Shown here: positions 4,396 through 19,366 of the stretch, one piece after another
Layout of the letters: every line of letters starts with the position of its first letter
Numbering within the stretch: the stretch's first letter is position 1
Virus record (IMG/VR): IMGVR_UViG_3300047494_000090
Location: 1-20,700 of that record
Direction: 5' to 3' (one strand)
Length of the DNA: 20,700 nt
Source of the DNA: a virus
Notes under the pieces: generated by a model
What the model was told of the DNA's origin: nothing
What the model saw: the letters and a program-made list of their open reading frames with translations, nothing else
The model's database searches: none
Made by a program: the position numbers and the translations under genes

Positions 4396-5787
4396 ATGAC
4401 CGTCGCCGAACTCAAGGCCGCGCGCGCCAAGCATCTCGACGCGATGCACGCGCTCGCCAATCTCCCCGATCTCGACGACAAGCAACTCGCCGAATACAAG
4501 GGCTTCAAGGTCGAAATCGAAAAGATCAGTGGTCAGATCACGCGGCTCGAGGAAGTTCAGGCCGAACAGACCAAGCTTGCCGCGCCCGTCGGCGCGACCC
4601 GGGTGCCCGCTGCGCCCGAGACCGATCGCTACCTGAAAGAAAAGTCGCTTCAGATCGGCGGCATCGCCAAGATGCTCGGCAGCGGCGGCGGCGGGATCCA
4701 CAACGCCCGCGCCTCGTCCATCGAAATCTACGGCGAGAACCATCCCGTCACCAAGGCGCTCTTTACCGGGTCCGGCTCCGCCGGCGGTTTCATCGTCCCG
4801 CCCGACGTTCTGAGCGAGGTGATCGAGCTGCTCCGCGCCAAGGCCGTGGTGCGCTCGGCCGGCCCACGCATCATGCCGATGACGCGGGGCACCATGACCT
4901 TGCCCGCGCAGACCTCGCCGTCCACGGCGAGCTACGGCGAGGAAGGCACGGCCATCGTGCCGTCGCAGCCGGGCTTGGGCGCGATCGTCGCCAGCTTCAA
5001 GAAGCTGACGGCCCTGGTGCCAATCTCGAACGACATGATGCGCTACGCCGATCCCGCCATCGACGCCTTCGTGCGCGACGATCTCGTGAAGGTCATGGCG
5101 CTTCGCGAGGACTTGGCGTTTCTGCTCGGCGACGGCACCCAGAGTACGCCGCGCGGCTATCTCTCCTTCGCCAACGGATGGGTCGGCAAGCAGGGCGGCA
5201 CGGTCGGCAATTGGAGCCAGAGCGTCGCGAGCACTTTCGCCGTCAACGCCGCGGACCCCGCGAATACGTCCGGCGGCAACTTCATCACGTCGACCGCGAT
5301 TTTCACGCAAGCGACCGTCGTCGCCGAACTCGGTGGAGCTGCCAGCCGGCTCGATACAGCCAATGTGTCCGACACCAAGCGCACCTGGTTCTTCAATCCG
5401 CGCACCTACAACTATCTGTTCAACCTGCAGAATTCGCTTGGCCTCTACGTCTTCCGCGACGAACTCGCGAAAGGCACGCTCAACGGCTATCCCTTCAAGA
5501 AGACGACGCAGATCCCGACGACTTATTGGGACACGACCGGCACCAACAAGGACCTATCCTTTGTCTTCCTTGTCGAGATGGTCGAGGATATTATTTTCGA
5601 CTCCTTGCAGATGCAGCTCGCGGTCTCGATGGAAGGCACCTATGTAAACGCGGCGGGGCAGACGATCTCCGCGTTCCAGCAAGATCAGACAGTGATCCGC
5701 GCCATCGCCGAACACGATCACCAGATGCGCCACGACGCGTCGGTCGCGGTGATCCAGTGCGTGCGCTGGGCGCCGGCGATTTCGTAA
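4396..5787 (+). CDS. Major capsid protein (HK97 fold)
   Basis: This is the subunit that builds the icosahedral head. The ATG at 4396 follows AGAAAGG (4383-4389), giving 463 residues. The first ~65 residues are charged and helical (ELKAARAKHLDAMHALANL onward), like the delta or scaffold domain that the prohead protease removes. The N-arm to core transition shows GGFIVPPDVLSEVIELLR, and the core includes MPMTRGTMTLPAQTS, YGEEGTAI, LVPISNDMMRYADP and LREDLAFLLGDGT, all typical of the phage_capsid family. The C-terminal part carries the usual YLFNLQNSLG and GYPFKKTTQIP blocks. The mature form probably starts somewhere between residues 60 and 125; the exact cut site cannot be read from sequence alone. 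Having an upstream protease and its own delta domain, the protein is expected to assemble as in HK97. Confidence 0.95.
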   Translation: MTVAELKAARAKHLDAMHALANLPDLDDKQLAEYKGFKVEIEKISGQITRLEEVQAEQTKLAAPVGATRVPAAPETDRYLKEKSLQIGGIAKMLGSGGGGIHNARASSIEIYGENHPVTKALFTGSGSAGGFIVPPDVLSEVIELLRAKAVVRSAGPRIMPMTRGTMTLPAQTSPSTASYGEEGTAIVPSQPGLGAIVASFKKLTALVPISNDMMRYADPAIDAFVRDDLVKVMALREDLAFLLGDGTQSTPRGYLSFANGWVGKQGGTVGNWSQSVASTFAVNAADPANTSGGNFITSTAIFTQATVVAELGGAASRLDTANVSDTKRTWFFNPRTYNYLFNLQNSLGLYVFRDELAKGTLNGYPFKKTTQIPTTYWDTTGTNKDLSFVFLVEMVEDIIFDSLQMQLAVSMEGTYVNAAGQTISAFQQDQTVIRAIAEHDHQMRHDASVAVIQCVRWAPAIS

Positions 5788-5817
5788 ACGCGCACCGCGC
5801 GGCGCACCCTAGCCTAG

Positions 5818-10854: not shown

Positions 10855-13800
10855 ATGGCCGATTCCGACGTCAAGGTCACATTCGGCGGCGATACCTCCG
10901 ACCTTGCCGACGCCGTCAAGCAGGCCAAGGCCGCGCTCGACGCGATGCGCGCGTCGAGCGATGGCGCGGCGGCGGGCCTGCGCGCGCAAACGGCCGCGAT
11001 GGAGGCCTCGCGCCAAGCCAACCAGGGCTGGGTGGCGTCGCTGCGCGACGGCGTCATCATCGGCGCCGGCGCCATCGCGGTCTTCAAGGGCCTCGCGGCC
11101 GCCTCGAATCAGCTCGACGACGCCGTGATCGGCCTCGCCGAGGGCACGTTGAAGGCCATGGACAGTCTCGTCGCGTTGACAGGCGCGGCGGGCGTCCATG
11201 GCCTTGCGAACCTTGGCCGCGATGTTGTCGAGGCCGGTGGCGCCGTCGCCGGTTTCGCCAGCGCCGCCGGCGCGGCCCAGGTCGCGACGGCGAAATTCGT
11301 CGGAGGCCTCGAACTGAGCGCGGTGCGCGAGGCGGCAACGGGAATCGACGCGGCGTCGAATTCGCTCAAGACTTATTTTGAATCGGCGGCCTACGGCGAA
11401 CGCGCGGCGCGGCTGTTTCGCCAGGAAAACGCCGGAATGGTGCCGACGATCGGGCGCGTGGTCCAAGGCATCGACGATTATTTCAAGGGCGTATCGCTTC
11501 TGAAGCAAGGCACGACCGAGGCCGAGGTCGCGGCGATCGCGGCGGCCGAGGGACTCGAGCGATTCAGCGAAGCGGCGCGTCAGGGCGGCCTCGGCAACAC
11601 CACGGAAACGCTGAGCCATTTCAACCAGATGCTCGCGCAAATCCCGGGCATGACAAAGGACGCGGCGGTTTCGATCGAGACCATGATGGTCGCGATCCCG
11701 AACTATACGACAGAGGCCAACGAGTCTCTTGTCTCGTTTCTTCAGCAAATCTCCGGAAGCGCCGACGAAGCGGTCGCGATGGCGAAAAGAATTACCGAGG
11801 CCTTTAAGGACCCCGCCGGCGGCGGCGCCGCGCTCGGGACCTTTCTGGCGGGCAGCGAAAAAAACCTGGGCGACTTGGTGACGCTGGCGTCGCGGCTTAA
11901 ATCCAGTTTCAGCGACCCCGCGCAAGCCACGGCCTTTTTCGACGCGATGATCGCGAGCATCCGCCAGACCGACGCGGCCTCGCAACGCGCGGACGCTCAG
12001 GCCAGCCAAAGAATGGTAGAGCGGCTCCAAACTTACAAACAGCTCGGTCCGCTGGGTCGCCTGCTCGAAACGAGCATCATGGGCGAAGTCCGCGCCCAGA
12101 CCGCGCAAACCGAGGCGGTCAAGAAGACGACGGAGGCTGTCGAACAGACGGTCAAGGCGTTGGAGGACGAAAGAGCGCTCTACGCCCAGATCGCGGCGGC
12201 GCAAGCGCGCGAGGCGACGTTTCAGAAGACGCTCGTCGACGCGCCCAAAACCGTGGACGAAAAGATCGGCGACCTCACGACGAAGATCGACGTGCTGCAA
12301 GGCCGTCTCAATCGCGCGGCCGGCGCGATGCGCGACTACAGCGAGGCGGAAAAGGACGCCATGGTCCGCACCATTTGGGGCGAGGCGCGAAGCCAGCCGC
12401 TGGAAGGCCAAATCGGCGTCGCGGAAGTTCTCAAGAATCGTGCCGACAACGGCCATTACGGCGACGGGATCGATGGGGTCGCCAAGGCTGGCAACGGCAG
12501 TCAGTTCAACGTGTGGAGGCCGAACGACCCGAACTACGCGCCGATGAACGCGCTGAGCAAGGATAGTCCAGAATACCAGGCGATCCTCAACAATGTCGTC
12601 GAACCCGTGCTGTCGGGCAAGGTCGACGATCCGACCAAGGGCGCGCTGAACTATTACAACCCGGACCATGCGACCGCGCCGTTCCCTATGAACAACAAGA
12701 CGAAAATCGGTGATCATTTGTTCGGCACCGCGCCTGGCGCGCCCGCGCCGATCGGCGCGCTGAGCGACGACGATGCCGCGAAGGCCAAGGCGACGCTTCA
12801 AACCTATCAGGACGCGCTAGCCAAGCTCACAGACGAAAAGAAGGGCGGCACGGCCGTCGATCAAGCTAATCTCGCGATCGTCGAGGAACAGCTCGCCAAG
12901 GGCAAGGATGAGGTGTCGGCGGCTGAAAAGCTCGTCGCGGCGCGAAAGCAGGCGGTCGAGGCCGCGAAGACCGGCACGCCCAGCGCCCAGCGCCAAGCCG
13001 CCGAGGCGCTCGGCAAGGCCGAGCTGGAGCTAAGGCAAAAGCAGGTCGCCGAGACCGTGCTCGCTGAAACCACAATGGCGGACGCCGCGCGCAAGGGCAG
13101 CCAGGACGAACTCGATCACCGCGAGGCCGCGATCGACGCGGAGATGACCCTGGTCGCTCAAAACGGCGCGCAATACGACAAATACGTCCAGCAGAAAAAG
13201 AAGCTCGAAAAGGATTTCCAAGAGGCTCAAGCCGGCGGCACGCCGACGGACCTCGCGAACCTGCGGATCGCCAGGGAGACGCTCGCGACGGGCAAGGATC
13301 AGGTCAAGGCGGCGGAGGCGCTTGTCGCCGCGAAACAAGCGGAGGTCGTCAAGGCCGCCGACAAGTCGCCGACCGATCAGACCAGGGCGGCGCAAGCCCT
13401 TGCGGAGGCGCAGAGCGCGCTTCGTGACAAGCAGGCGGAGGCGCAGAGCGCGAGCTTCAAACTCCAGGCCGCCCAGGCGCGCCAGGGCAGCCAGGAGCAG
13501 CTGGCGGCGCAGCTCGCCGCGCTGAGCGCGCAAGAGGTCGGTCTCGATCACAGCGACGCGAAATTCAAGGAGATCGAGGCGCGGAAGACCGAAACGGCGC
13601 GACGATTCGCCGAGCAGCGCGCCGGAGACGACGCCTCCGGCGCCGAAGCCGATTATCAAAACGTATCGCGCAAGCTCAAGGAGCAAGAGGATGCGATCAA
13701 GGAATCCGCCCGATCCGGAATGATCTCCCGCGCGCAAGAGACCGCCGATCTAACCGCCAATCTCGCCCAGCAAGAGGGCGCCGAGCGCGCCTATTTGACG

Positions 13801-14646
13801 AGGATGGAGGCGATCTACGCGCAAATGCCGGCCAAGCTCAGGCCCTATACAAGGCAAATGGCGGAGCTGAACGAAAAGTACGAGCAACAGCGCGGCGACG
13901 ACGCCAACCAGGCGAACGCGACGCTGTTCGAAAGCTATCGCGGTTATTTCGAGCGCATCGGATCGACCGTTTCGTCGTCTCTGATGGCGATCATCGAGCG
14001 CACTGGCACGTGGCGCCAGTTGATGCAGAATGTCGCGAAACAGGTCCTGTCGTCTTTCATCGACATGGGCGTGAAATGGGTCGCCGATTGGGCCGCGAAC
14101 CAGACCTTCGCGGTGGCGAAATCGCTTTGGGCCCAAGCTCAGATGACGACGGCGGCCGTGACCGGCGAGGCCGCGCGGACGGGCGCGGCGGCCGCGGGCG
14201 CGGGCGCCCAGGCGAGCGCGGCGCTGGTCGGTCTTGCGACGACGGTGCAAGCCGATGTAAAGGCCGTCTTCGCCGGCGTCGCGGCATTCCTCGCGCCGAT
14301 CTTGGGCCCGGCGGCCGTTCCCGTCGCCGCCGGCGTCGCGGGCTCGATCCCCGCCCTCGACATCGGCGCATGGAACGTTCCGGGCGACATGACGGCATTG
14401 ATCCATCGCAACGAACTCGTCATGCCCGCCGCCCAAGCCGGCGCCTTCCGCGACATGCTGTCGAACTACAACGGCGGCACCACGAACAATGGCGGCTCGC
14501 AGACCAACCACAACCGGATGTCCGTCACGAACAACATCAACGGCGCGCGCAGCCCGCGCGCGATCATCAACGAGGTCAGCAATAATTCGCGCGGGCTCGC
14601 CAAGGTCATGGCCCAAGCCATGCGCGAAGGCCAGCACCGCAGGTGA
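10855..14646 (+). CDS. Tape measure protein with embedded SleB-type hydrolase domain
   Basis: The protein has 1263 residues; ATG 10855 lies five bases after the chaperone stop. The tape measure sets tail length and is ejected into the cell envelope ahead of the DNA. The first ~480 residues are Ala-rich helix with a hydrophobic stretch (IIGAGAIAVFKGLAAA) near residues 63-85. Residues ~495-630 match SleB/Hydrolase_2 cell-wall hydrolases: MVRTIWGEARSQPLEGQIGV, EVLKNRADNGHYG and ALNYYNPDHA; Glu510 in GEAR is the likely catalytic acid. Residues ~669-928 are two tandem copies of a 130-residue coiled-coil unit. A hydrophobic C-terminal region (FAGVAAFLAPILGPAAVPVA) precedes a Gly/Asn-rich part and a basic end. 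The hydrolase presumably locally opens peptidoglycan during entry (inference). Confidence 0.9.
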   Translation: MADSDVKVTFGGDTSDLADAVKQAKAALDAMRASSDGAAAGLRAQTAAMEASRQANQGWVASLRDGVIIGAGAIAVFKGLAAASNQLDDAVIGLAEGTLKAMDSLVALTGAAGVHGLANLGRDVVEAGGAVAGFASAAGAAQVATAKFVGGLELSAVREAATGIDAASNSLKTYFESAAYGERAARLFRQENAGMVPTIGRVVQGIDDYFKGVSLLKQGTTEAEVAAIAAAEGLERFSEAARQGGLGNTTETLSHFNQMLAQIPGMTKDAAVSIETMMVAIPNYTTEANESLVSFLQQISGSADEAVAMAKRITEAFKDPAGGGAALGTFLAGSEKNLGDLVTLASRLKSSFSDPAQATAFFDAMIASIRQTDAASQRADAQASQRMVERLQTYKQLGPLGRLLETSIMGEVRAQTAQTEAVKKTTEAVEQTVKALEDERALYAQIAAAQAREATFQKTLVDAPKTVDEKIGDLTTKIDVLQGRLNRAAGAMRDYSEAEKDAMVRTIWGEARSQPLEGQIGVAEVLKNRADNGHYGDGIDGVAKAGNGSQFNVWRPNDPNYAPMNALSKDSPEYQAILNNVVEPVLSGKVDDPTKGALNYYNPDHATAPFPMNNKTKIGDHLFGTAPGAPAPIGALSDDDAAKAKATLQTYQDALAKLTDEKKGGTAVDQANLAIVEEQLAKGKDEVSAAEKLVAARKQAVEAAKTGTPSAQRQAAEALGKAELELRQKQVAETVLAETTMADAARKGSQDELDHREAAIDAEMTLVAQNGAQYDKYVQQKKKLEKDFQEAQAGGTPTDLANLRIARETLATGKDQVKAAEALVAAKQAEVVKAADKSPTDQTRAAQALAEAQSALRDKQAEAQSASFKLQAAQARQGSQEQLAAQLAALSAQEVGLDHSDAKFKEIEARKTETARRFAEQRAGDDASGAEADYQNVSRKLKEQEDAIKESARSGMISRAQETADLTANLAQQEGAERAYLTRMEAIYAQMPAKLRPYTRQMAELNEKYEQQRGDDANQANATLFESYRGYFERIGSTVSSSLMAIIERTGTWRQLMQNVAKQVLSSFIDMGVKWVADWAANQTFAVAKSLWAQAQMTTAAVTGEAARTGAAAAGAGAQASAALVGLATTVQADVKAVFAGVAAFLAPILGPAAVPVAAGVAGSIPALDIGAWNVPGDMTALIHRNELVMPAAQAGAFRDMLSNYNGGTTNNGGSQTNHNRMSVTNNINGARSPRAIINEVSNNSRGLAKVMAQAMREGQHRR
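12859..13639 (+). repeat. Tandem duplication of a ~130-residue unit in the tape measure gene
   Basis: Copy 1 starts at 12859 (DQANLAIVEEQLAKGKDEV) and copy 2 at 13249 (DLANLRIARETLATGKDQV), 390 bases later. Further blocks also align: AAEKLVAARKQ with AAEALVAAKQA, ARKGSQDEL with ARQGSQEQL, and the Gly-Gly-Thr that precedes each copy. The copies are clearly diverged, so the duplication is not recent. A 390-base period should add a fixed length to the tail. Confidence 0.8.
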
Positions 14647-15248
14647 GCGCGCCGCCGGTCTTCCCCGACCTTCGCGGGCTCGGCTGGGGGGTCAAGATGA
14701 CCCCCTCGTTCTCCACCCGCGTCGCGCAGCATGTCTCGGGCCGCACGGTGCGCCTCGGGCTCTACGCGCGCCCGCTCTATCAGTTCGAGCTCGTCTACGA
14801 GGGGCTCGACGCCGGCGGCGACTTTCCTGGCCTTACCGACCGCTCGCTGCAAGCCCTCATGGGGTTCTACATCGCCTGCCAGGGACAGTTGGGCACCTTC
14901 GTTTATCCCGATCCGCTCAAGACCGAAGCCAAAGGCCAAGCCATCGGCTTGGGAGACGGCGCGACGACGGCGTTTTCGTTCCAGCGCGACATCGGTCCAA
15001 CGACGACGCCCGCCTCCTACGTGACTTACGTCGGCGCGGTCTACATCAACGGAATCGCCACGAGCGGCTGGACGCTGAACCAGCCCAACACGCTGATCAT
15101 GACGACCGCGCCAGCCGCCAACGCGGTCATTACCGCCGACTTCAACAGCGGTTATCTCTGCCGCTTTCTCGACGACCAGGTCGATTTCGAGGAATTCATG
15201 AACGGGGTGTGGCAGGTCGAGTCGCTGAAATTCATTTCGGTGCGATGA
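14643..15248 (+). CDS. Distal tail protein (DUF2460, GTA gp12-like)
   Basis: The protein has 201 residues; GTG 14643 overlaps the tape measure stop (GTGA). The family signature runs FPDLRGLGWGVKMTPSFSTRV, RTVRLGLYARPLYQFELVYEGL, then LQALMGFYIACQGQLGTFVY and a D-P motif. The C-terminal part DQVDFEEFMNGVWQVESLKF closes the domain as in the family. DUF2460 proteins form the distal tail ring under the tube; the Rhodobacter gene transfer agent has one at the same place after the tape measure gene. Between ~residues 98 and 170 there is a strand-rich insert (GDGATTAFSFQRDIG) like those seen in other phage versions. Confidence 0.88.
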   Translation: MSAPPVFPDLRGLGWGVKMTPSFSTRVAQHVSGRTVRLGLYARPLYQFELVYEGLDAGGDFPGLTDRSLQALMGFYIACQGQLGTFVYPDPLKTEAKGQAIGLGDGATTAFSFQRDIGPTTTPASYVTYVGAVYINGIATSGWTLNQPNTLIMTTAPAANAVITADFNSGYLCRFLDDQVDFEEFMNGVWQVESLKFISVR

Positions 15249-16165
15249 AAACCGCTCCGTCCGCCCTGACCAGCTACCTCAACGCGCTGCGCGCGTCCCC
15301 CGACGCGCCGCTCTACCTCGCGGACTGCTTTACGTTCTGGCTCTCGAATGGTTCGGTGCTGACCTATTCGAGCCTCGACGTGCCCGTCGCGCTGAACGGC
15401 TTCACCTACCTCGCCAACTCTCTCCAGGTGTCGGGGTTGAAATACAAGGCTTCGACAGGCGTCAACGTCGACAAGCAGCAGATCACGATTTCGGCCTATC
15501 CCGGCTACACGATAGGCGGCGCGCCGTTTCTCGCGGCGCTCCAGCAAAAGCTCTTCGACGGCGCGGAAATTCAACGCGAAAGGGTGTTCTTCTCAAGCTA
15601 CGGGGCCGTGCCGCCGCTCGTGCCCATCGGGAACGGCTCGGTCATTTTGTTCAAGGGCCGCGTCTCGACGATCGAGGAAATCGGCCGCACGACGGCGAAA
15701 GTCACCGTCGCGTCGGACCTCGTGCTGCTTGATATCGACATGCCGCGCAATCTCTACGCGCCGACATGCAATCATGTTCTCTACGACGCGGGCTGCACGC
15801 TGAACCGCGCCACCTATACCGCGAGCGGCGTGGTCGGCGCGGGATCGTCGATCACGAATATTCTCTGGAGCGGCGCGACCTCCGCTTACCAGCAAGGCGC
15901 CCTGACGTTCACGAGCGGCGCCAACGAGGGCACGGAAGTTACCGTCAAGGCCGCGAGCGCCGGCTCGCTCGGGCTGATGTATCCGCTTCTGGAACAGCCC
16001 GCGACCGGCGATGCGTTCACGGTCTGCCAGGGCTGCGACCACACCTTCGCGACATGCAAGGCGAAGTTCAACAACTTGTCGAATTTCCGGGGATTCCCGT
16101 ACGTGCCGAGCCCGCTGATCATTTCCGGACCGCTGGCGTCGACGACAAGCTCGAGGGGGAAATAA
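15245..16165 (+). CDS. Baseplate hub protein (DUF2163, GTA gp13-like) with Cys cluster
   Basis: The protein has 306 residues; ATG 15245 overlaps the previous stop (ATGA). It begins LTSYLNALRASPDAPLYLAD and LADCFTFWLSNGSVLTYSS, then has the beta-barrel strands of the DUF2163 N-terminal domain (TYLANSLQVSGLKYKAST). The C-terminal part holds the conserved cysteines Cys175, Cys184, Cys261, Cys264 and Cys271 (CNHVLYDAGC; CQGCDHTFATCKAKFNNLSN), followed by FRGFPYVP. In the gene transfer agent and in the lambda L family these cysteines bind an iron-sulfur cluster (family knowledge), so the same is likely here. It links the distal tail ring to the hub and tip. Confidence 0.88.
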   Translation: MKTAPSALTSYLNALRASPDAPLYLADCFTFWLSNGSVLTYSSLDVPVALNGFTYLANSLQVSGLKYKASTGVNVDKQQITISAYPGYTIGGAPFLAALQQKLFDGAEIQRERVFFSSYGAVPPLVPIGNGSVILFKGRVSTIEEIGRTTAKVTVASDLVLLDIDMPRNLYAPTCNHVLYDAGCTLNRATYTASGVVGAGSSITNILWSGATSAYQQGALTFTSGANEGTEVTVKAASAGSLGLMYPLLEQPATGDAFTVCQGCDHTFATCKAKFNNLSNFRGFPYVPSPLIISGPLASTTSSRGK

Positions 16166-16170
16166 TCGTG

Positions 16171-16584
16171 ATGCACGAGGCCTATTTCACGAAGCGTTTG
16201 TTGGTTCGACCCGAAGAGAAAGAAGGGGTAAAGGGCTACGCGCTCCTTTATCAAGATGGAACATATGACTCGTGGTGTCCCGCCGCCATATACGAGCGCG
16301 ATTATCACGCGACCGAAGGCGGTGAGATGACCTTCGGCGAGGCCGTCGCGGCGCTCAAAGCGGGCGATCTCGTGCGGCGGCTCGGCTGGAACGGCAAGGG
16401 AATGTTTCTCTTTCTTGTGCAACTCGACGAGTTAAGCAAGAACAATGTCTATCCAGCACACATGATCATTGGGTTTGACCCGCTGCCTTTTATCGCGATG
16501 AAAACGGCACAAGACAGCGTTGTGCCCTGGCTCGCGTCGCAGACGGACATGCTGGCGAGCGATTGGGAAATCGTCCCGGCGTGA
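16171..16584 (+). CDS. Tad2-like anti-Thoeris protein (DUF2829)
   Basis: The protein has 137 residues from ATG 16171; GTG 16168 is an alternative, and AGGGGG at about 16154-16159 serves either. Residues ~53-135 match DUF2829, the Tad2 family: MTFGEAVAALKAGDLVRRLG, WNGKGMFLFLV, then PFIAMKTAQDSVVPWLASQ and TDMLASDWEIV. Tad2 forms oligomers that sequester the cyclic ADP-ribose variant made by Thoeris; some members also bind other cyclic nucleotides (family knowledge). The first ~50 residues (EGVKGYALLYQDGTYDSWCP) are a short N-terminal part seen on other DUF2829 proteins. The coding sequence is more AT-rich and uses codons rare in neighbours, such as ATA, GTA and GGA. It lies between two baseplate genes, where the gene transfer agent has none, which suggests insertion as a moron. 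Confidence 0.88.
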   Translation: MHEAYFTKRLLVRPEEKEGVKGYALLYQDGTYDSWCPAAIYERDYHATEGGEMTFGEAVAALKAGDLVRRLGWNGKGMFLFLVQLDELSKNNVYPAHMIIGFDPLPFIAMKTAQDSVVPWLASQTDMLASDWEIVPA

Positions 16585-17078
16585 CGATGGCAACCGAAAC
16601 CCACGCCGTCGCGCTCATCCCCGAAACCGAGGTCGCCCAACGCGCGGCCGTCGTCGCCGAGGCGCGCACGTGGATTCGCACCCCCTACGTCAATTGCGCC
16701 GACATCCGGGGCCGCGGCGTCGATTGTGGCATGCTGATCGTGCGGTGCTTCGTCGACACCGGTCTTGTCGCGCCGTTCGATCCGCGCCCCTATCCGCCGG
16801 ACTGGCATCTCCACCGATCGGGGGAGCGCTATCTCGGCTTCGTCGGCGATCGTTGCAAGCAGGTGAGCGAGCCCCAGCCCGGCGACGTCGCGGTGTTTAA
16901 GTTTGGCCGTTGCTACAGCCACGGCGCCATCGTCGTCGCCGCGAAGCCGCTGCGGATCGTCCATGCCTTCGTGCAGGCCCGCCAAGTCGTCGAGGAAGAC
17001 TTGGTCCGTAATCCGCACCTCTGCGACACTAAGCGCGCGGTGATGTTTTTCAGCCTCTGGCCCAGCGCGCCGGCATGA
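16581..17078 (+). CDS. NlpC/P60 tail peptidase (GTA gp14-like)
   Basis: The protein has 165 residues from GTG 16581, chosen because it forms a GTGA overlap with the previous stop and is nine bases after GGGAAA (16567-16572); ATG 16587 is the alternative and would shorten it by two residues. The NlpC/P60 fold is shown by ARTWIRTPYVNCADIRGRGV, Cys49 in GVDCGMLIVRCF, the PGDVAVFKFG block and His114 in YSHGAIVV. Cys49 and His114 are the likely catalytic pair of this peptidoglycan endopeptidase family. The gene transfer agent has a peptidase at the same position, where it sits at the tail tip and helps cross the cell wall. Confidence 0.9.
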   Translation: MTMATETHAVALIPETEVAQRAAVVAEARTWIRTPYVNCADIRGRGVDCGMLIVRCFVDTGLVAPFDPRPYPPDWHLHRSGERYLGFVGDRCKQVSEPQPGDVAVFKFGRCYSHGAIVVAAKPLRIVHAFVQARQVVEEDLVRNPHLCDTKRAVMFFSLWPSAPA

Positions 17079-19366
17079 GCGGCATTCTCGGCGGCGGCTC
17101 GAAGGCCACGCAGGTCACGACCTATTCGGGCCTCCAGGTCCAGACGACCTCGGCCGCCGTGCCCGTGCCGATCGTGTACGGCTGCAACGTCCTCAGTCCG
17201 AATTGTTTCTGGTACAACGATTTCAGCTCGCATCCCGTGTCCGGCAAGGGCGGCAAGGGCGGCATTTTCAGCGGCGGCTCGTCGCAACAGACGCTGGATT
17301 ACGACTGTTCGATCATGATGGGCCTCTGCGAAGGGCCTATCAACGGCATCGGCCAGATAATGCAATCGTCCAACACATGGACGTCGCTCGCGGCCCTGAA
17401 CCTCAGCGCCTATTACGGCACGTCGCCGCAAGACCTCTGGCCGTTCCTGACCTCAAACCACTCCGACGAAGCGCTCGCCTATCCTGGCATCGCCTATGTC
17501 TGCTCCGCCTATTACGATCTCGGCTCCGGCGCGACGATCGGCTCGAACATCTTCGAAATCTACGGCACGTTCTACCAAAGCGGATGCAACGGGGTTGATG
17601 CCGACCCCGCGTTGGTGATCCAGGATTTCCTGACCAACATCCAGTATGGTGTCGGCTTCCCCGCCGCGTCGATCGACACGACGGCGCTCCTCGGCGGCAG
17701 CGGCACGGGGAGCTACCAAGCCTATTGCTGGGCGGTGGGCCTCGCGATCTCCCCGGCCTTGAACGATCAGGAATCGGCGTCGTCGATCTTGGAGCGTTGG
17801 CTCCAGATCACCAATTCGACGGCGGTGTGGAGCGAGGGTAAACTCAAGATCATCCCATACGGCGACCAAGCCGTCACCGGCAACGGGCAGACTTGGGTGC
17901 CCGACACCGCCGTCGTCTACGCGCTGACGGACGACGATATCGTCGCCGCCGAAAACGAAGACCCCGTGAAGATCGCGATCACCGATCCTTTCGCGGCCTC
18001 CAATCAGCAGAGCGTGGAAATTCTTTCCCGCTCCGACCAATACAATTCCGGGCCGATCACGACCTTTGACCAAGGCATGATCGACCGGTTCACGCGTCGG
18101 ATCGGGTCGACCGTCACCGCGCACGAAATCTGCGACAACAACGTCGGGCAGGTTTCCTGCCAATTGATCTTGCAGCGCGGCCTCTACATCCGCCGCACCA
18201 TCACGTTTAGGCTCTCGTGGGAATTCTGCTTGCTCGATCCCATGGACCTCGTGGCCGTCACGGACGTCGACTTGGGCCTTCGCGCCGCCGTCTTTCGCAT
18301 CATCGATATCGAGGAAGACGACGACGGGACGCTTACGATCACGGCAGAGGAATACCCGGCTGGCGTCGCCACCGCCGTCCTCTACCCCACGCAAGTCGTC
18401 ACGAGCGCGCCGGGCAACAGCTTGGTCGCGCCGCAGCCCGTCAACCCGCCCATCATCATCGAGCCGCCGCCGGCCCTGTCGGGCAACACGCCTTCGCTTT
18501 GGGTCGGCGTCTCGCCGGAAAACAGCGACCCGAACTGGGGTGGCTGCAACATCTACGCATCGGTTGACGGCACGTCCTACACGCCCCTGCCCGTGGCGAC
18601 GCTGCGCGGCTCGTCAACCATGGGCGTCACGACGGCGCCGCTGCCGCTCTATACCGGCGCCAACCCAGACACGGCCGACACGCTATCCGTCATCCTGGCG
18701 GCGAGCGACACGACGCTCACCTCGACGACGCCGGCCAGCGCCGAAATTGGTTCGACGCTCTGCTATGTCGGCGGGGAATACCTGTCCTTCACGACGGCGA
18801 CGCTCACCGGCGCGGACACCGTCGACTTGCTCGGGATCGGCGTCGCGACGTCCGAGATCGCGCATGGGATAGGCGTCGATTACGGCGGCGTCTCGCAAGC
18901 CGTGTCCGAGACGGACGATTGGGGCGATCTCACATCATCCGTCCTGGCCACGATCGACTTGGGCAATCTCGGCTTCGCGGGCTCGGGGAATTACAATCTG
19001 ACGGGTCTCTATCGCGGCCTAGAAGGTCTGATTTCGGTGCAAGTACCATCGGGCGCGCCGTTCCTGCTGCTCACCGGCAATATCGTCAAATACGATATTT
19101 CGGCGGTTCCGGTCGGCACCACGCTTTACCTGAAATTCCAGTCCTACAACACCTACGGCGCGGCGCCTGAGGATATCTCGGCCTGCGCCGTCTACACTCA
19201 CGAGATTTCGGGCGCGAGCGTGCTGGGGCCTGTTTCCACCGCGCTCGGGCTGGGCATCAACCTGGATTACGGGCGCGTCTCGGAAAACGTCTCCGAGAGC
19301 GACGATTGGGGCGATCTCGTCTCGCCGGTCATCGCCACGATCGACCTCGGCTCGCTCACGACCTGA
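17075..19366 (+). CDS. J-like tail tip / central hub protein
   Basis: The protein has 763 residues; ATG 17075 overlaps the previous stop (ATGA). The start GILGGGSKATQVTTYSGLQV then TSAAVPVPIVYGCNVLSPN is typical of the tail tip attachment family. The next blocks fit the Phage-tail_3/hub fold: DYDCSIMMGLCEGPINGIGQ, LVIQDFLTNIQYGVGFPAA, ILERWLQITNSTAVWSEGKL and DPMDLVAVTDVDLGLR. A Pro-rich linker near residues 450-470 precedes a strand-rich C-terminus with fibronectin-like character. Two copies of a ~31-residue motif (DYG...VSE..DDWGDL...ATIDLG) lie near residues 600-632 and 731-761. It is much shorter than the ~1300-residue gene transfer agent hub and lacks its TIM-barrel part. It probably carries receptor-related function together with the downstream tailspike. 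Confidence 0.85.
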   Translation: MSGILGGGSKATQVTTYSGLQVQTTSAAVPVPIVYGCNVLSPNCFWYNDFSSHPVSGKGGKGGIFSGGSSQQTLDYDCSIMMGLCEGPINGIGQIMQSSNTWTSLAALNLSAYYGTSPQDLWPFLTSNHSDEALAYPGIAYVCSAYYDLGSGATIGSNIFEIYGTFYQSGCNGVDADPALVIQDFLTNIQYGVGFPAASIDTTALLGGSGTGSYQAYCWAVGLAISPALNDQESASSILERWLQITNSTAVWSEGKLKIIPYGDQAVTGNGQTWVPDTAVVYALTDDDIVAAENEDPVKIAITDPFAASNQQSVEILSRSDQYNSGPITTFDQGMIDRFTRRIGSTVTAHEICDNNVGQVSCQLILQRGLYIRRTITFRLSWEFCLLDPMDLVAVTDVDLGLRAAVFRIIDIEEDDDGTLTITAEEYPAGVATAVLYPTQVVTSAPGNSLVAPQPVNPPIIIEPPPALSGNTPSLWVGVSPENSDPNWGGCNIYASVDGTSYTPLPVATLRGSSTMGVTTAPLPLYTGANPDTADTLSVILAASDTTLTSTTPASAEIGSTLCYVGGEYLSFTTATLTGADTVDLLGIGVATSEIAHGIGVDYGGVSQAVSETDDWGDLTSSVLATIDLGNLGFAGSGNYNLTGLYRGLEGLISVQVPSGAPFLLLTGNIVKYDISAVPVGTTLYLKFQSYNTYGAAPEDISACAVYTHEISGASVLGPVSTALGLGINLDYGRVSENVSESDDWGDLVSPVIATIDLGSLTT
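18872..18970 (+). repeat. DDWGDL module, copy 1 (in tip protein)
   Basis: This encodes a unit with DYGGVSQAVSETDDWGDL and then VLATIDLGNL. It matches the final 31 residues of the same protein, about 130 residues further on. The matches run at protein level with several synonymous differences. Confidence 0.8.
19265..19357 (+). repeat. DDWGDL module, copy 2 (C-terminal end of tip protein)
   Basis: This encodes DYGRVSENVSESDDWGDL and then VIATIDLGSL, ending three codons before the stop. Such a short terminal module next to a terminator and a tailspike gene could be the anchor for the spike or a site of recombination; this is inference. Confidence 0.8.

Follow-up and report, generated by a model that had tools for sequence, protein, structure and literature searches.

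The window, by which we mean the whole 20.7 kb virus record analysed here, is a fragment without host chromosome. It holds a head-tail operon in which a Tad2-like gene lies between the baseplate hub gene and the gene for an NlpC/P60-type tail peptidase. The locus raises the question of what a member of this protein family, itself already known, is doing in a tail operon related to those of alphaproteobacterial gene transfer agents (GTA-like), where counter-defence genes are seldom sought. We consider it fairly probable that the gene is a horizontally acquired moron among the late tail genes of a siphophage or prophage that is GTA-like and probably belongs to a Hyphomicrobiales host, and that it encodes a Tad2-family sponge, most likely for a gcADPR of type I Thoeris.

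The tail operon and its two-module gene

The operon runs from a truncated portal gene through an S78 protease, an HK97-type capsid gene, connector and tail genes, the tape measure and DUF2460 to the hub, the Tad2-like gene, NlpC/P60 and a Phage-tail_3/Rcc01698-type gene (Table 1). The start of the hub gene shares an ATGA overlap with the DUF2460 stop. The neighbours that the original prediction had assigned to the Tad2-like gene are confirmed by profiles, with the TIGR02219 match of the NlpC/P60 gene (53.8 bits, E 2.7e-14) lying under the cut-off of 81.9.

Three further observations concern the structural genes. The hub cysteines C175, C184, C264 and C271 do not vary among 24 relatives, in agreement with the iron-sulphur site of four cysteines that is known from the hub of RcGTA (PMC7296036). 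The tape measure contains a SleB-type Cell Wall Hydrolase domain, and the portal gene, truncated at the contig start, is extended at its C-terminal end by a long stretch in which RDAHGRWTS motifs recur.

Table 1. Features of the window (nucleotide positions in the window; residues counted in the respective protein)
Feature	Position	Strand	Basis
Portal gene, truncated	179-2524
Tape measure gene	10855-14646
Cell Wall Hydrolase domain of the tape measure, residues 514-623	12394-12723		PF07486
DUF2460 / Rcc01695-like distal tail gene	14643-15248	+	PF09343
Baseplate hub gene, left flank of the insert	15245-16165	+	TIGR02218; PF09931 and PF09356
Tad2-like gene, 137 aa, N-terminal module and Tad2 domain	16171-16584	+	ORF; PF11195; phrog_872; AF2 model
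N-terminal module of 52 aa, predicted small SH3/Tudor-like barrel	16171-16326	+	conserved in 33 fused relatives
Tad2-like domain, residues 53-135	16327-16575	+	profile (PF11195, formerly DUF2829), motifs
RxGWNGKGM motif, residues 70-78
PWLASQTDMLASDW, residues 119-132
NlpC/P60-type tail peptidase gene, right flank	16581-17078	+	TIGR02219
Phage-tail_3 / Rcc01698-type (megatron-like) tail gene	17075-19366	+	PF13550, PF23666

The Tad2-like reading frame opens at ATG 16171 and ends with the TGA at 16582-16584. Its proposed identity is borne out by an HMM search, in which PF11195 is matched over model positions 1-73 of 73 with 93.4 bits (E 1.3e-26), the curated cut-off being 25 bits. The solved relatives found by sequence in the PDB are HgmTad2/AcrIIA7, SPO1 Tad2, SptTad2 and ModTad2, with E values of 4e-13 to 2e-16. 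An AlphaFold2 monomer model was built from 38 aligned relatives (mean pLDDT 88.4); its Foldseek top match is 8smf, SPO1 Tad2 with gcADPR (E 3.6e-7), and VIA-align gives Z 11-12.6 against all solved Tad2 proteins (12.6 against 8wje), the next fold reaching only 6.0. In family, fold and motifs the protein is as in known Tad2, and we infer by analogy with these relatives that it may function as a sponge.

The Tad2 label that had been given to the whole gene holds for residues 53-135 and fails for residues 1-52, where a second module outside PF11195 had been overlooked. This N-terminal module carries the motif Y-x-D-G-x-x-S-W-x-P...Y, with strands predicted at 2-5, 9-17, 20-27 and 33-37 and a helix at 38-44. 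Pfam and PDB sequence searches with it returned no family and no solved relative. The profile phrog_872 covers the module and Tad2 together, the fusion is seen in most long relatives, and the module also matches phage families without Tad2 (phrog_9467, phrog_32732), with 73 profile matches among the loci fetched. It is a separate, widespread and uncharacterised phage module. The window protein has it and all solved Tad2 proteins lack it; the two-module Tad2 is a variant common in phages.

Weak fold similarity of the module to the RNA-polymerase-interacting domains of CarD and Mfd was seen at Z 5-6. Predicted alone, the module reaches a moderate pLDDT of 74, and its best fold matches are again CarD and Mfd, at Z 4-5. 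Such scores are too weak for naming a CarD/Mfd-type function, and the resemblance serves as a lead only. An internal start at ATG 16327, which would yield a Tad2-only protein, was also rejected, because the methionine is unconserved and replaced by L or V in 13 of the 33 fused relatives. Therefore, one polypeptide is expected.

An accessory insert in a recurrent cargo slot

The lower GC and rarer codons attributed to the gene are real but modest. Its GC (0.563), GC3 (0.681) and CAI (0.539) are each the lowest of the 17 genes compared, the next-lowest values being 0.579, 0.703 and 0.558, and only 2.2% of 414-base stretches are equally GC-poor.

Queries with the hub and NlpC retrieved about 190 syntenic loci from virus contigs and genomes. 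The nearest genome matches belong to Hyphomicrobiales (Methylovirgula, Beijerinckia mobilis and Xanthobacteraceae MAGs), and the carrier is probably a GTA-like siphophage or prophage with a host in this order. Among the 187 loci with both flanks (duplicates kept in, window included), the gap between hub and NlpC is at most 60 bases in 119 and exceeds 200 bases in 57, and Tad2 occupies the junction in the window only. The original prediction had named presence of the gene in all related phages, with matching composition, as the outcome that would speak against an insertion; the same-locus comparison found it missing from the junction in every other syntenic locus examined (about 186). A tree built from 86 hubs places the window hub in a clade of 24 (SH-aLRT 99), and the junction is empty in 23 of the 23 other members. 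These empty junctions, together with the deviant composition, bear out that the gene was inserted, and it stands as an accessory insert (moron) between hub and NlpC. Since the window hub branch is long (0.32), the insertion is not datable. The nearest relatives of the window NlpC differ from those of its hub. Import of Tad2 and NlpC as one block was considered and set aside, as the AU test does not reject a topology that constrains the window NlpC to the hub clade (p-AU 0.72).

The GTGA coupling to the peptidase gene that had been described holds only if NlpC begins at GTG 16581, and is lost if it begins at the in-frame ATG 16587, 2 bases past the Tad2 stop, which is at least as likely a start. 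In 17 close relatives the hub and NlpC genes share a four-base overlap, and with the GTG start the Tad2 stop of the window occupies that place. The single promoter-like site counted before the gene (16139-16166, against 0.3 expected) lies too near to the start codon, and no sense-strand terminator-like site was found 3' of the gene.

The embedding of the gene in the tail operon and its coupling to the peptidase gene might suggest that the protein has turned into a tail or virion component instead of serving counter-defence. We regard this as very improbable, because almost all related tails lack the gene and have the hub directly joined to NlpC, and because the genes of the closest proteins (L002, 57% identity; L003, 52%) immediately adjoin portal genes of SU10 or P22 type in unrelated, podovirus-type phages.

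The insertion itself was thus correctly recognised earlier, whereas the general nature of the junction as a cargo slot was overlooked. On the hub tree, the cargo or empty state of the junction requires 13 changes, and 9 of these changes are forced by well-supported branches. The hub-NlpC junction is a recurrent cargo slot across the relatives, with at least 9 forced state changes. In L108 it holds, on the opposite strand, a 337 aa protein combining TIR_2 with CAP12/Pycsar-TIR (4798-5811, minus strand), which matches the PADLOC candidate defence PDC-S35. In L134 and L160 the cargo consists of DUF2019 and DUF4760 proteins, and elsewhere of small genes of no known family, many of the ORFs in these gaps being mechanically listed ones that may not be genes. 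In another group of relatives (L238, L259, L260, L267, L273, L274 and L276), the hub-NlpC junction holds at least 2 kb of cargo; at L274:2494-3213 an Imm52 immunity protein lies beside large unknown proteins, and this content looks like toxin-immunity cargo.

The DUF2460-hub junction is a second cargo slot. A short and different Tad2 lies there in three relatives from another clade (L247:3742-3996, L235:974-1291 and L258:638-937). Together with the window Tad2 in the hub-NlpC junction, this implies at least two entries into the junctions flanking the hub. In the three short proteins the flanks are alike, the segment between the two pocket motifs is strongly divergent and the motifs themselves are altered (GWTGEKM, GWRGAWA, SHGD), a pattern that would suit exchange or diversification of the ligand site. 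That a candidate TIR defence gene in L108 and a putative sponge for a TIR signal in the window share one slot is suggestive but amounts to a single pair of cases; Tai systems provide a precedent for placing genes of defence and counter-defence close to structural or tail functions (PMC11364771). The cargo slot at the hub gene offers a new and useful hunting ground: by synteny alone it can be mined for unknown genes of defence, counter-defence and toxin immunity in environmental phages of Alphaproteobacteria.

Pocket motifs and the probable ligand

Tad2 proteins are tetramers whose gcADPR pockets are formed by the beta1-beta2, beta3-beta4 and beta4-alpha3 loops, and they bind cyclic dinucleotides via a long insertion between beta2 and beta5 (PMC12043709, review). 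In the predicted model, GWNGKG and WLASQTD sit in the corresponding loops. The residues G56, R70, G72, W73, N74, W120, S123, D126, L128, D131 and W132, invariant in the 38 relatives, are all present in the window protein. Loss of pocket residues had been named as evidence against the Tad2 assignment; it was not seen, and the family-invariant residues of the two pocket-lining motifs, GWNGKG and WxxSQTDxLAxDW, are intact.

The spacer from GWNGKGM to WLASQTD comprises 42 residues in the window protein, compared with 43 in SPO1 Tad2, 54 in SptTad2 and 61 in HgmTad2, and the long beta2-beta5 insertion is absent. This bears on whether the protein is a cyclic-dinucleotide (CBASS) sponge, alone or besides acting on gcADPR. 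Two members of the family, HgmTad2 and SptTad2, are cGG binders (PDB titles; PMC12043709), and overall fold scores fail to separate SptTad2 from SPO1 Tad2: the apo SPO1 protein and cGG-bound SptTad2 tie against the model at Z about 12.5, which counts against the gcADPR reading. However, binding of cyclic dinucleotides is tied to the long insertion (PMC12043709), and with a spacer unlike those of the two cGG-solved proteins a cyclic-dinucleotide site is less likely; we consider such a sponge improbable.

The second pocket motif bears on His-ADPR, the signal of type II Thoeris, which is bound by ModTad2 (PMC13299392). Sequestration of His-ADPR by the window protein would agree with the common family and short spacer, with the match of the model to 9eib (ModTad2 with His-ADPR, E 4.8e-7), and with the lack of an adjacent STALD ThsA for most of the small ThsB-like TIRs in the probable host order. 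We nevertheless find it unlikely, because ATWTPSVSDILAEDW of ModTad2 corresponds to VPWLASQTDMLASDW in the window protein: the SVSD type of beta4-alpha3 loop is absent, and SQTD is present as in the SPO1, Hgm and Spt proteins. A ModTad2-like form occurs in only two of the 38 aligned relatives, L056 and L072. In these two fused proteins S[VI]ND replaces SQTD, so the N-terminal module may accompany either ligand type.

The short spacer and, if the SVSD/SQTD motif sets ligand specificity, SQTD as well point to a Thoeris signal of gcADPR type rather than to cyclic dinucleotides or His-ADPR. The original prediction had left the target as Thoeris, CBASS or both; this is only partly supported, a lack of preference not being borne out, and a gcADPR-type ligand is our best guess from four characterised relatives and the review. 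By analogy with these proteins, the sponge would assemble through its Tad2 domain and would hold a TIR-made ADP-ribose signal, most likely a gcADPR of type I Thoeris, in pockets of the GWNGKG and WLASQTD loops. The Thoeris effector would thereby be kept from triggering NAD+ loss and abortive infection.

HgmTad2 was deposited as AcrIIA7, an inhibitor of type II CRISPR-Cas, and phage homologues are annotated 'anti-CRISPR protein', which would suit an AcrIIA7-like action on Cas9. The name is inherited from one family member, however, and the conserved residues fall in the nucleotide-pocket motifs; anti-CRISPR activity is hence a highly unlikely role for the window protein. Klebsiella phage phi1_146050 has two genes with this annotation separated by one gene (L294:3310-4381); one is a Tad2 match and the other may be a second copy.

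Complete-looking type I Thoeris, with STALD ThsA beside ThsB, was seen in 2 of the 297 genomes sampled from the probable host order (0.7%). The target thus exists in this order, and its rarity in the sample counts against a type I Thoeris sponge. ThsB-type TIR matches were found in 46 of the 297 genomes, many of them inside large unrelated proteins. Tad2 above the cut-off is carried by 6 of the 297, and among the fetched carriers none has Tad2 adjoining window-type tail genes.

Expression timing and comparison with known systems

Thoeris ThsB1 senses the major head protein Mhp (PMC12043709). With a structural protein as trigger, a sponge expressed from a structural operon would be timed with that trigger. 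Such timing fits the window, L002, L003, L018, phage phiAH14a and the three relatives with Tad2 in the DUF2460-hub junction. We offer it as a hypothesis and not as a rule, since early or lysis regions are the site of many Tad2 genes. A late-operon position as a general trait of Tad2 was rejected, the neighbours being mixed (portal, head, terminase, lysis, replication and early regions), and none of the 80 loci obtained with the Tad2 query contains window-type tail genes.

The observations could be joined into one broader proposal, which we regard as improbable. Both junctions flanking the hub would be a dedicated slot for conflict genes, holding TIR defence in some relatives and a TIR-signal sponge in others; the sponge would be made from the late structural operon and appear with the structural proteins that trigger Thoeris; and the Tudor-like module would place it, for example at RNA polymerase.

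Proteins of phrog_872 (for example those of Ruegeria phage 45A6, Pseudomonas phage phiAH14a and Escherichia phage Louie) share the two-module architecture with 40-45% full-length identity, but their genes lie in the head operon, lysis or early region and none in the hub-NlpC junction. SPO1 Tad2 (gp34.65; 8sme, 8smf, 8smg) is the best structural match, alike in fold, RxGWNGKxM, SQTDxLAxDW and spacer; it differs in lacking the N-terminal module, in a domain identity of about 45%, and in its host and genome place. HgmTad2/AcrIIA7 (8kbi-8kbm, 9kzr) and SptTad2 (8wjd) belong to the same domain family with shared motifs and about 40% identity, and are set apart by the long insertion tied to cyclic-dinucleotide binding. 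ModTad2, from a Myroides odoratus prophage (9eib, 8v3e), has the domain and short spacer of the window protein and differs by SVSD in place of SQTD and by binding His-ADPR. The RcGTA tail cluster, finally, has the flanking genes in the same order, hub g13, peptidase g14 and megatron g15 (PMC7296036), with nothing between g13 and g14, whereas the window carries one added gene between hub and peptidase.
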